A stretch of 64,000 nucleotides of DNA from Gammaproteobacteria bacterium (lineage in GTDB: Bacteria > Pseudomonadota > Gammaproteobacteria > Steroidobacterales > JABDKV01): NCBI GenBank assembly GCA_013003425.1, contig JABDJB010000067.1, positions 1 to 64,000 on the forward strand. The letters run 5' to 3'. Each line of letters opens with the position of its first letter. Within the stretch, counting starts at the first letter, position 1. A program made the position numbers and the translations under genes. Below are positions 23,723-28,170 of this stretch, one piece after another. The notes below the pieces were generated by a model. The model had not been told where the DNA came from and searched no databases. It saw only the letters and a program-made list of their open reading frames with translations.

Positions 23723-25348
23723 ATGAGCTTTATCCAGGATGCCCCGCGGCTGGGCAATCAGTTTACCGGCGATCCATTGCTGCAGCGCTGGCTGCGCTGG
23801 CGCCTGCCCGACCACGCTTTTGGCGAAATCGTTGAGGGGTTGCATGCGCTTGGCGGCAGGGTAGTTGGTGATATCGCGCAGTATGCCGCCGACGCCGAGG
23901 CAAACCCACCACAGTTACGGCATTTCGATGCCTGGGGAAACCGCGCCGACACCATTGTGATGGCAGACGGCTGGCAAAAACTGCACGCGGCCGCTGCAAC
24001 CGAGGGAATTATTGCAACGGCCTACGAGCAGAGCCAGGGCGAATATTCACGCGCCCATCAGTTTGCCCGCCTGTACCTGTTTCATCCGTCCTCGGCATTG
24101 TATTCGTGCCCGCTGGCAATGACTGACGGGGCTGCCAGCGTTTTGCTGCAACTTGGCAGCAGGCAGCTGGCACAACGCGTAGTGCGTCGCCTGACCAGCC
24201 GGGTCCCGGAAGAATTCTGGACTTCGGGCCAGTGGATGACCGAGACGGCTGGCGGGTCGGATGTCAGCAATACCGGCACCGTAGCGCACCCTGATGGTGA
24301 CGGTTACCGGCTGGCCGGTCACAAGTGGTTCAGTTCCGCAGCAACCTCCGAGATTGCGCTGACGCTGGCGCAGCTTGACGGTAGGCTGAGCCTGTTCTAC
24401 CTGGAGACTCGCAACAAGGATGGTTCGCTCAATGGCATAACAATCGAGCGCCTGAAGGACAAGCTTGGCACGCGGGCAATGCCGACTGCCGAACTTGCGC
24501 TGCAAGGCACGCGCGCCCGGTTACTGGGTGAGCCTGGTCATGGCGTGCGCAATATAGCTGGCATGCTCAATATCACGCGTCTATATAATTCGGTCTGTGC
24601 GGTAGCCAGCATGCGTCGCGGGCTTGCCCTGGCACGTGACTATGCTCACCGGCGTACGGCTTTTGGTCGACCATTGATCGGGCACGTACTTCATCGCGAG
24701 ACCCTTGCCAACCTGGAGGCGCATTACCAGTCGGCATTTCACCTGGTGTTCCATCTCGGCTTGCTGCTTGGTAAAGCAGAGGCGGGTGTGGCCAGCGATG
24801 CCGAGCAGCTGCTGCTGCGGCTGATGACACCGGTAACAAAGCTTTATACCGCCCGGCTGGCCGTGGCATCAGCCAGTGAAGTGCTGGAGTGCTTTGGCGG
24901 CGCGGGCTACATCGAAGATACCGGGCTGCCAAAGTTGCTGCGTGATGCACAGGTGTTGCCGATCTGGGAAGGCACGACAAACGTGCTCAGCCTGGACGCA
25001 AGCCGTGTGTTGCAGCGACAGCCGGCCGCGATGGAGGCTTTTGTCAGTGACGTTTACGGTCGTCTTGCCGGCGATGACAGGGAACTGGCGCCGGCGCGTC
25101 GCCATATCAATGACGGTATGGGTCGCCTGCGTGTATTACCCGCAGACAGCGAAGCTGACGCTCGCGAACTGGCGTTCGGCCTGGCCCGGGTATATGCCGC
25201 TTCGTTGATGTACGAATGCGTCGCGGCCCACCCGGCCTGGCAGGTATCTCGAGCGGCGCTTGAATGGACTGTTCAGCGCACGCTTGTTGGACCCTGGGCC
25301 CAGCCTGGCACCCTCGCTGCTGCCGATATTCTGGCCCGCCAGCGATAG
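23723..25348 (+). CDS. aidB: AidB-like acyl-CoA dehydrogenase family flavoprotein
   Basis: 541 residues, the same length as E. coli AidB, an FAD protein of the acyl-CoA dehydrogenase superfamily induced by alkylation and thought to protect DNA. It shows WMTETAGGSDVSNTGTVAHPDGDGYRLAGHKWFSSA for flavin binding, IERLKDKLGTRAMPTAEL, LARDYAHRRTAFGRPL, and GGAGYIEDTGLPKLLRDAQVLPIWEGTTNVLSLD at the end of the core. A C-terminal domain follows from about 440. No ada gene is adjacent, although an AlkB-family gene lies 12 kb away. An ordinary acyl-CoA dehydrogenase role cannot be excluded. Confidence 0.85.
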   Translation: MSFIQDAPRLGNQFTGDPLLQRWLRWRLPDHAFGEIVEGLHALGGRVVGDIAQYAADAEANPPQLRHFDAWGNRADTIVMADGWQKLHAAAATEGIIATAYEQSQGEYSRAHQFARLYLFHPSSALYSCPLAMTDGAASVLLQLGSRQLAQRVVRRLTSRVPEEFWTSGQWMTETAGGSDVSNTGTVAHPDGDGYRLAGHKWFSSAATSEIALTLAQLDGRLSLFYLETRNKDGSLNGITIERLKDKLGTRAMPTAELALQGTRARLLGEPGHGVRNIAGMLNITRLYNSVCAVASMRRGLALARDYAHRRTAFGRPLIGHVLHRETLANLEAHYQSAFHLVFHLGLLLGKAEAGVASDAEQLLLRLMTPVTKLYTARLAVASASEVLECFGGAGYIEDTGLPKLLRDAQVLPIWEGTTNVLSLDASRVLQRQPAAMEAFVSDVYGRLAGDDRELAPARRHINDGMGRLRVLPADSEADARELAFGLARVYAASLMYECVAAHPAWQVSRAALEWTVQRTLVGPWAQPGTLAAADILARQR

Positions 25349-25481: not shown

Positions 25482-25508
25482 TAAAGATCAAGCCCGACCG
25501 GCCGATAC
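25482..25508 (+). promoter_or_regulatory. FliA (sigma-28) flagellar promoter
   Basis: TAAA at 25482-25485, a 15-bp spacer, then GCCGATAC at 25501-25508. This matches the sigma-28 consensus TAAA-N15-GCCGATAA at 11 of 12 specified positions. Transcription would begin near 25515, about 40 nt before the ATG at 25556. It would drive the HD-GYP/EAL pair together with late flagellar and chemotaxis genes. Confidence 0.8.
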
Positions 25509-25555
25509 CCTTTTGTGACGCCTTGCGCCCCGAGCCCACAAGGATTGACTCACGG

Positions 25556-26863
25556 ATGATGGCAGGTCTGAAAATTCCGGTACACGAGCTGCGCGAAGGC
25601 ATGTACGTTGCCCGGCTGGACCGCCCGTGGCTGGACACCCCGTTTCTGTTCCAGGGGTTTACCATTCGCAGCCAGCAGGAAATAGACGAACTGTGCCGCT
25701 ATTGCGCCTGGGTCATGGTCGACCGCGAGCGCTCCGAGGTAGAGTTGGAAGCAGCATCAACCGAAAGCGGTCACCCGGGCCAACGACCGTCGTTGTCAAA
25801 ACGGGTCGGCGGCCTGCTGCGACGCCTGCGCGGCGGTGGCCGCCAGGCAAATCCGATCCAGCCGCTTACGTCGCTTGCCGGCCTGCCGCGCACTTCTTAC
25901 AAAGATCAGGAAACCACCATTTCCGACGAGATCCCGCGCGCCAACGAGTCCGTGATGCGTGCCCAGGAGATGGTGCGCCAGGCAACCCAGCAGTTGAAAG
26001 TCAGCGAGACTATCGAATTTTCCCTGGTTAGCCAGGCGGTCGACCCGATCATCGACAGCGTGCTGCGCAACAAGGATGCGATGATCTGGCTGCAGAGCAT
26101 GCGTGGCAAAGACGAGTATGTCTTTTCCCGTTCTGTGGCGTGCAGCGTTTGGAGCGTGATTTTCGGCCGTCACCTCGGCCTCGACCGGGACACGCTCACA
26201 CACCTTGCAACCGGTGCGCTGTTGCTTGACCTGGGCAAGGTAAAGGTTCCGGATGAGTTGCTGATGCGAGACGGGCCGCTTGGCGATGAAGAAATGGAGA
26301 TGGTGCGGCAGCATGTCGAGTATGGCGTGAAGATGCTGGCTCGCAGCGGTGACTTTGATGACTGTGTCATCGAAATGGTGCGTACCCACCACGAGCGGTT
26401 CAACGGTACCGGTTATCCGGAAGGGCTGAAGGGAACCGAGATCCCGCCACTGGGAAAGATCGCCGGCATCCTCGATACCTTCGTCGCGATGACCAGCCAG
26501 CGCCCGCATGCTGATGCGATGGCGAGCTACGACGTCATGCGTCACCTGCACCAGCTGGCGGATGTCGAGTTCCAGGCTGAACTGGTGGAGCAGTTCGTGC
26601 AGGCAATCGGCATGTTTCCCACTGGTTCGCTGGTCGAGCTGAGCACCGGCGAAGTTGCGATCGTTACCGAACAGAACCGGATTCGACGCCTGCGGCCAAG
26701 AGTTATGGTTGTACTAGGCGCGGAAAAAGTGATGTTACGCGAGTTTCGAAAAGTCGACCTGCGCGAGCAGATAACCAGCGACAGTGGCGAAGCCTCCTTG
26801 TGGATCACGCGTGGCCTGCCGCCCGGTTCGTACGGCATCGACCCCGGAGAATTTTTCCTGTGA
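25556..26863 (+). CDS. DUF3391 plus degenerate HD-GYP protein
   Basis: 435 residues. An N-terminal DUF3391 (KIPVHELREGMYVARLDRPWL) is followed by a basic linker and an HD-GYP domain (about 160-345), normally a c-di-GMP phosphodiesterase. The GYP region HHERFNGTGYPEGLKG is intact, as are QHVEYG and ILDTF. Two metal-ligand histidines are gone: the HD motif reads LDLGK (Leu224-Asp225) and the earlier HS motif reads RS (Arg192). A C-terminal ~80-residue domain follows. Hydrolysis is probably impaired and the protein may sense c-di-GMP instead. ATG 25556 is preferred over the TTG at 25523 because AAGGA lies upstream and DUF3391 starts there. Transcribed from the FliA-type promoter. Confidence 0.88.
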   Translation: MMAGLKIPVHELREGMYVARLDRPWLDTPFLFQGFTIRSQQEIDELCRYCAWVMVDRERSEVELEAASTESGHPGQRPSLSKRVGGLLRRLRGGGRQANPIQPLTSLAGLPRTSYKDQETTISDEIPRANESVMRAQEMVRQATQQLKVSETIEFSLVSQAVDPIIDSVLRNKDAMIWLQSMRGKDEYVFSRSVACSVWSVIFGRHLGLDRDTLTHLATGALLLDLGKVKVPDELLMRDGPLGDEEMEMVRQHVEYGVKMLARSGDFDDCVIEMVRTHHERFNGTGYPEGLKGTEIPPLGKIAGILDTFVAMTSQRPHADAMASYDVMRHLHQLADVEFQAELVEQFVQAIGMFPTGSLVELSTGEVAIVTEQNRIRRLRPRVMVVLGAEKVMLREFRKVDLREQITSDSGEASLWITRGLPPGSYGIDPGEFFL

Positions 26864-28170
26864 TCGATGCCATACCGACAACCAGCAAGACCGGTTTCAC
26901 CGCCTACATGGAGGTGCTGGAGCACTACCTTGAGGAATCCCGCGCCAAGGGCGAGCACCTTGCACTGCTGCTGGTTGAACTCGATAACCTGCGCCAGGTA
27001 AACACCACCATGGGTTACGAATCCGGCCGACAGATGTTGTCGCTGGCCGCCGAGCGGCTGCAGAGTGTCTGTCGCACCCGCGACCGTGTAATCCAGTACT
27101 CCGACCAGGGATTTGCGCTGTTGCTGGCCGGCGTGCGTAACGAAGGTCACGCGGAACTGGCGGCGAACAAGGTCTGGCGCATGTTCGAGAACCATGTCGA
27201 AATCGTGGGCCGCCGGGTGGTAATAGAGATTTCAATGGGTATAGCGATGTACCCCGGCCACGGTAACAGTGCGCAAAAGCTGATGCAGGCCGCCGAAGCA
27301 GCGCAATCAGCCGCGACTGCCACCTCGCACTGGTGCCTGTTCACACCGGCTGTTACGGCCGAGGCGACCGGTATGGTGGGCATAGCAGCAGAGCTCGATC
27401 GTGCCCTGGCCGAGGGCGAGCTCGAGATGCATTACCAGCCCAAGCTGTGCCTGGAGACCGGCAAGCCATCCGGGGTTGAGGCCCTGATGCGCTGGTTTCA
27501 TCCGGAACGCGGGCCGATACGACCCGACATCTTTATCGGCATGGCCGAACGCATTGGCAAGATCGAGGACCTTACCTGGTTTGCGCTCAATACCGGCCTG
27601 CGTCAGAAGCGCGAATGGCCTCGGGCAGAAGCACCATTCAACGTCTCGATAAACGTTACCCCGCAAATCGTGCAGAAATTTGAATTTGCCCAACTGGTGC
27701 TCAACGCGCTGCAGGTGTGGGACGTGCGCCCGAACGAACTGACGATCGAGGTGACTGAAACTGCGTTGATGACAAATCCCGAGGAAAGCTTCCGCACTTT
27801 GACCGCCCTCAAAGATGCTGGCGTGCGGATATCCATTGACGATTTTGGTACTGGCTACAGTTCGCTGGCGTACTTCAAAAATATACCGGCCACCGAGCTT
27901 AAGATCGATCGCAGTTTCGTTTTCAAGATGCTGGAGAATCCCGGCGACCGGCGCATCGTGCAGACCGTTATCGACCTGGCGCATAATTTCGGGCTGAAGG
28001 TCGTCGCCGAGGGCATTGAAAATGAAGATACGCATGCGGCGCTGGTGACGATGGGTTGTGACGGTGCCCAGGGCTATCACTACGCGAAGCCGCTCAGTCA
28101 TGCTGACCTGTGTCGCTGGTTGGGACACCAGGCCACGCAGCGCCAGCCAGCCGATCTCGCCGAGGCCTGA
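26860..28170 (+). CDS. Degenerate GGDEF plus intact EAL c-di-GMP phosphodiesterase
   Basis: 436 residues. The N-terminal ~165 are a GGDEF domain whose signature reads SDQGF (VIQYSDQGFALLL), so no cyclase activity is expected. The EAL domain (about 180-425) keeps its catalytic set: GVEALMRW, the Asn of SINVTPQ, the Glu of EVTET, DDFGTGYSSL, LKIDRSFV, VAEGIENE and QGYHYAKPL. It should linearise c-di-GMP to pGpG. The GTG start overlaps the HD-GYP stop by 4 nt (GTGA), so the two are translationally coupled and share the FliA-type promoter, pointing to a role in motility. Confidence 0.93.
   Translation: MIDAIPTTSKTGFTAYMEVLEHYLEESRAKGEHLALLLVELDNLRQVNTTMGYESGRQMLSLAAERLQSVCRTRDRVIQYSDQGFALLLAGVRNEGHAELAANKVWRMFENHVEIVGRRVVIEISMGIAMYPGHGNSAQKLMQAAEAAQSAATATSHWCLFTPAVTAEATGMVGIAAELDRALAEGELEMHYQPKLCLETGKPSGVEALMRWFHPERGPIRPDIFIGMAERIGKIEDLTWFALNTGLRQKREWPRAEAPFNVSINVTPQIVQKFEFAQLVLNALQVWDVRPNELTIEVTETALMTNPEESFRTLTALKDAGVRISIDDFGTGYSSLAYFKNIPATELKIDRSFVFKMLENPGDRRIVQTVIDLAHNFGLKVVAEGIENEDTHAALVTMGCDGAQGYHYAKPLSHADLCRWLGHQATQRQPADLAEA

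Follow-up and report, generated by a model that had tools for sequence, protein, structure and literature searches.

A probable FliA promoter in front of an EAL phosphodiesterase gene and its predicted pseudo-HD-GYP partner in uncultured gammaproteobacteria

Gene pair and upstream motif

The window analyzed here, a stretch of 64,000 nucleotides from a gammaproteobacterial genome, carries two overlapping genes on its + strand. The first (positions 25556 to 26863) encodes a protein of 435 amino acids with a DUF3391 domain and a degenerate HD-GYP domain (Pfam PF11871 and PF13487), likely a pseudo-enzyme, and the second (26860 to 28170) encodes a protein with a degenerate GGDEF domain and an intact EAL domain (PF00990 and PF00563). 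The GTG start of the EAL gene overlaps the stop of the HD-GYP gene by 4 nt (GTGA, 26860 to 26863), an overlap also found in the related genomes G003 and G004 and present as TTGA in G002. The ATG at 25556 lies in a GATGAT start context that is conserved across the genus, and AAGGA at 25540 to 25544 (+ strand) is the likely ribosome binding site, judged by its sequence. Outside the unit, the upstream neighbor is a co-directional acyl-CoA dehydrogenase gene (23723 to 25348, + strand, called from its open reading frame and Pfam match), which ends 133 nt before the motif described below.

Upstream of the pair, on the + strand, TAAA (25482 to 25485) is followed by a 15-nt spacer and GCCGATAC (25501 to 25508). 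Read as FliA (sigma-28) promoter elements, this gives a −35 element TAAAG (25482 to 25486) and, 14 nt past it, the −10 element GCCGATAC. The site matches the E. coli consensus, TAAA-N15-GCCGATAA, at 11 of 12 bases, and its −10 element lies 47 nt from the ATG; a preliminary description of this DNA, which had proposed a FliA motif one base off consensus and at the right distance from the start codon, was correct on both counts. Going by the usual spacing after a −10 element, transcription is predicted to start at 25513 to 25517 (+ strand), and the pair would have a 5′ leader of about 40 nt. It was also noted that, where transcription would be expected to begin, a GTGA(G) stretch just past the −10 element (25513 to 25526 in the window, and in the orthologues) is seen repeatedly in the genus. 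The possibility that this stretch is one half of a CRP site was dismissed, since the second half is absent.

Predicted activities of the two proteins

Alignment of the second protein to 5M3C, 4RNH, and 55 relatives showed that its EAL catalytic set (E-A-L, N, E, DD, K, E, and Q) is complete. Across the 56 EAL partners surveyed, E2, DD, K, E3, and Q were kept in every protein and N in 55. The GGDEF loop reads SDQGF and does not conform to GG[DE]EF, and GGDEF was not among the commonest loop sequences of the 56 partners. It could be argued that FliA transcribes the pair while bulk c-di-GMP stays unchanged, with the EAL protein acting locally or as a c-di-GMP-responsive scaffold that has little effect on motility. 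The degenerate GGDEF and HD-GYP domains do suggest regulation rather than turnover, and some GGDEF-EAL proteins are known to act as triggers or scaffolds. However, the EAL catalytic residues are all intact and nearly invariant, which argues for selection on catalysis, and we regard a purely local or scaffolding role as unlikely, although it deserves to be kept in mind.

The residues of the HD-GYP domain were assigned by alignment to PmGH (4MCW) and to 79 relatives. Two metal-ligand histidines are replaced, with R192 at the position of PmGH H189 and L224 at that of H221, the histidine of the HD dyad, so that PmGH H221-D222 corresponds to L224-D225. In addition, Y188 takes the place of E185 and V310 that of the structural D308. 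D225, K228, H253, H278, H279, D307, and the GYP motif are retained, including the equivalents of the PmGH ligands H250, H276, H277, and D305; the GYP motif reads HHERFNGTGYP, with N replacing the usual D. In PmGH, activity is abolished by alanine at every metal ligand other than E185 and D305, H189 and H221 included (PMC4159591). Because both of these ligands are lost, the first protein is predicted to be without phosphodiesterase activity and is probably a pseudo-enzyme. RpfG is active although it lacks the H189 equivalent and, in all, two of the eight PmGH ligands (PMC4159591), and our prediction of inactivity therefore leans mainly on the change of H221 to L.

The retained residues, and the fact that RpfG functions with an incomplete ligand set, would be in line with a working FliA promoter in front of two active enzymes, in which the HD-GYP protein is a phosphodiesterase with a reduced metal site and both products lower c-di-GMP. 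Yet the histidine of the HD dyad, essential in PmGH, is lost in every EAL-paired relative, and the equivalents of H189 and D308 are also lost in the window's family, which makes an active HD-GYP enzyme distinctly improbable. Since the HD-GYP protein lacks metal ligands, any lowering of c-di-GMP would come from the EAL protein and not from both products. The c-di-GMP gene pair of the preliminary description accordingly holds as far as the overlapping genes and the complete EAL site are concerned, but not for the HD-GYP protein, without two of its metal-ligand histidines; the GGDEF domain is degenerate.

Loss of the HD histidine went together with EAL pairing. Among 76 HD-GYP loci with a judgeable downstream region, the histidine was lost in 56 loci with an EAL partner and in 8 without one, and it was kept in 12 loci without a partner and in none with one (Fisher P of 4e-9; because the loci are related, this value makes them look more independent than they are, yet they divide cleanly). 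The residues replacing the histidine in the HD-GYP relatives (L075 to L154, 79 relatives) were L, M, C, or F. The simplest reading of this pattern is that, with an EAL phosphodiesterase next door, the HD-GYP domain may have given up catalysis and become a partner. Nothing matching such pseudo-HD-GYP/EAL pairs was found in the open-access literature.

The FliA motif in the genome and in relatives

As checks on the promoter assignment, the preliminary description had asked that the genome contain fliA and flagellar genes and that orthologous loci retain the motif. A full-length fliA is present in the genome (256 bits, against a cut-off of 189.6), along with flagellar clusters in which open reading frames were read as flg rod and hook genes and Pfam matches identified flagellin, fliD, motAB, and PilZ. 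The gene flgM, a standard FliA target, encodes an anti-sigma factor, and its promoter in this genome, TAAAG-N14-GCCGATAC, does not differ from the pair's site at any of the 13 specified bases. The genome's own fliC (flagellin) promoter reads TCAAG-N14-GTCGATAC, and C is the last base in all four flagellin promoters of the genus, which lie at a nearly constant distance from the gene. As the flgM and fliC promoters of the genome itself also end in C, the single deviation of the pair's site from the E. coli consensus follows a local rule, and what had been counted as a mismatch is the norm at the flagellar promoters of this genus.

To score the site, a matrix was built from eight sites at flgM and fliC in the family, with the pair's site left out, and was run on the window and the flagellar loci. 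The pair's site ranked first of 127,946 window positions with 22.8 bits, a score equal to that of the genome's own flgM site, and the runner-up reached 15.9 bits. The exact pattern TAAA-N15-GCCGATA occurs five times in the 3.26-Mb genome, and a reversed control pattern is equally frequent, with five copies; the bare consensus pattern is thus little proof, and genome-wide enrichment was dropped as an argument in favor of conservation. Two of the five copies lie in the correct orientation directly 5′ of a gene, and these are the copies at flgM and at the HD-GYP/EAL pair.

T(A/C)AAG-N14-GCCGATA lies 70 to 84 nt upstream of the orthologous gene in four further genomes, three from the genus itself and one from a sister genus. 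The upstream DNA of the family is otherwise diverged, and the site is kept at the same place in all five members. A rival view would make the site a fortuitous resemblance, with expression of the pair driven by some other promoter or by transcription running on from the acyl-CoA dehydrogenase gene. This would agree with the equal count of the reversed control and with the co-directional position of that gene, between which and the pair no co-directional terminator was found on that strand. It is very hard to reconcile, however, with one position conserved in five of five members amid diverged DNA, with the absence of any 12/12 site from 2000 shuffle sets of the five upstream regions, and with a search around and upstream of the pair that found no sigma-70-like promoter. 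Some read-through from the dehydrogenase gene may nonetheless occur.

For a wider survey, in which all genomes compared were uncultured assemblies, named genome contigs were scanned and yielded 80 loci, 79 of which were scored together with the window. Motif matches at 10 or more of 12 positions were found in 19 of the 80 scored loci, where dinucleotide shuffling predicted 0.56 (at most 3 in any of 300 rounds), and six loci had a 12/12 motif (expected, 0). The motif clustered on the maximum-likelihood tree, with 8 changes compared to a mean of 17.2 after shuffling and no shuffled set as low in 500. It was present in all five loci of the window's family, in both members of a related locus pair, in seven of nine loci of a Woeseiaceae-like clade, and in four of six loci of a more distant clade. 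A gene for FliA was found in 37 of 50 genomes, including the majority both of genomes with the motif and of those without it, and absence of the motif elsewhere is therefore not simply absence of FliA; for the same reason, an association between fliA presence and motif was uninformative and was set aside. A full FliA was not found in G001, whose assembly is 70% complete, nor was FliA found in G066, although an 11/12 site is present there; both cases possibly reflect incomplete assembly. Separately, L153, a distant HD-GYP relative with an intact HD dyad and no EAL partner, has an 11/12 FliA-like site at −104.

Other candidate FliA targets were seen in these genomes. The gene order flgM-flgN-motA-motB-PilZ-HDOD/GGDEF lies 3′ of a FliA promoter in G000 (C49; L168, 3073 to 7808) and also in G003. 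As the PilZ gene follows flgM-flgN-motA-motB in the genus, a c-di-GMP receptor may share FliA control. TAAAG-N14-GCCGATA also lies upstream of an SprA-related gene (PF12118) in three genus members (L045, L047, and L060), a candidate FliA target, and perfect FliA motifs were seen near the start of genes for a dockerin/EF-hand protein in G002 and for a protein without a Pfam match in G003 (L040 and L054). No convincing fliD or flgL promoter with the same motif was found in G000.

A different promoter type was seen in a clade whose 24 loci lack the FliA motif; TGTGA-N6-(T/C)CAC(A/G) lies upstream in 16 of them. In 12 of these 16 (L085, L087, L089, L090, L091, L094, L097, L103, L104, L110, L126, and L142), a TATNAT box begins 36 or 37 nt from the start of the CRP-like site, an arrangement which we take to fit a class II CRP-dependent promoter. 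The sites in these 12 loci lie about 84 to 101 nt upstream of the HD-GYP match, and CRP scored above its curated cut-off in all six CRP-site genomes checked. Judging by these motifs, it seems that some lineages place the pair under flagellar control, whereas another places it under CRP. One could go further and suppose that the pair is a single device, with the dead HD-GYP domain as obligate regulator or sensor of the EAL protein and with a promoter swapped between FliA (in several clades) and a CRP-type promoter responding to cAMP (in the sister clade); this idea is tentative, and we would not yet favor it.

Proposed role of the pair

Taken as a whole, the explanation that we hold with good confidence is that 25482 to 25508 is a genuine FliA promoter of a two-gene unit encoding an EAL phosphodiesterase and a pseudo-HD-GYP partner. 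Since the FliA switch is conserved in relatives, these uncultured bacteria probably make the pair at the time of flagellar construction. In the mechanism we propose, flagellar assembly would export FlgM and free FliA, and FliA-RNA polymerase would then transcribe the pair along with the rest of the late genes, flgM and flagellin among them. The EAL protein would degrade c-di-GMP while flagella are under construction, and with c-di-GMP lowered, neither PilZ-type receptors nor the biofilm program would brake swimming. The pseudo-HD-GYP protein would most likely bind the translationally coupled EAL partner and control or tune it, which is the least certain step. FliA binding, the start site, and the direction of the effect on c-di-GMP are likewise what we infer from the DNA.

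The principle itself is established from FliA-dependent phosphodiesterases, namely, E. coli yhjH and, in part, P. putida bifA. YhjH (PdeH) of E. coli and Salmonella resembles the pair in being an EAL phosphodiesterase whose gene is under FliA, as predicted here from the promoter motif. Together with the PilZ receptor YcgR, which like YhjH is under FliA in E. coli (PMC4866697), it serves a system in which c-di-GMP is lowered as flagella are completed, and a PilZ gene also lies behind a FliA promoter here. YhjH, however, is a lone EAL protein, whereas the EAL protein of the pair also has a degenerate GGDEF domain and is coupled to a pseudo-HD-GYP partner. The pair is thus best read as similar in function to YhjH/PdeH but, given its different domain make-up, not as a member of that group. 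BifA of P. putida is likewise an EAL-type phosphodiesterase with a sigma-28 site, but its expression falls only about twofold when FliA is lost, and P. aeruginosa bifA showed no canonical FliA site (PMC5300878). Control of bifA by FliA is hence partial, while the site at the pair is canonical and conserved in relatives. Like the first protein, V. cholerae VC2497 combines DUF3391 and HD-GYP domains (PMC4212101); the clade studied here differs from proteins of that type in that the HD histidine is lost and an EAL gene is paired. Bd1817 (3TM8), an unconventional protein of HD-GYP fold reported to be without catalytic activity (PMC4159591), also bears a likeness to the first protein, although the sequence match is weak (E of 1.6e-10).

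The novelty appears to lie in the lineages, which are uncultured, in a pseudo-HD-GYP/EAL unit serving as a FliA target, and in promoters that differ between clades. Regulation of c-di-GMP breakdown by FliA, known from Pseudomonas and enteric bacteria, would thereby reach uncultured gammaproteobacteria as well, on promoter evidence cleaner than that at bifA, and the FliA and CRP-type promoters of one pair would offer a natural case of regulatory rewiring. That members of this HD-GYP family lose the HD histidine when paired with EAL is a testable rule and, if it is true, a number of proteins annotated as HD-GYP phosphodiesterases would in fact regulate a neighbor.
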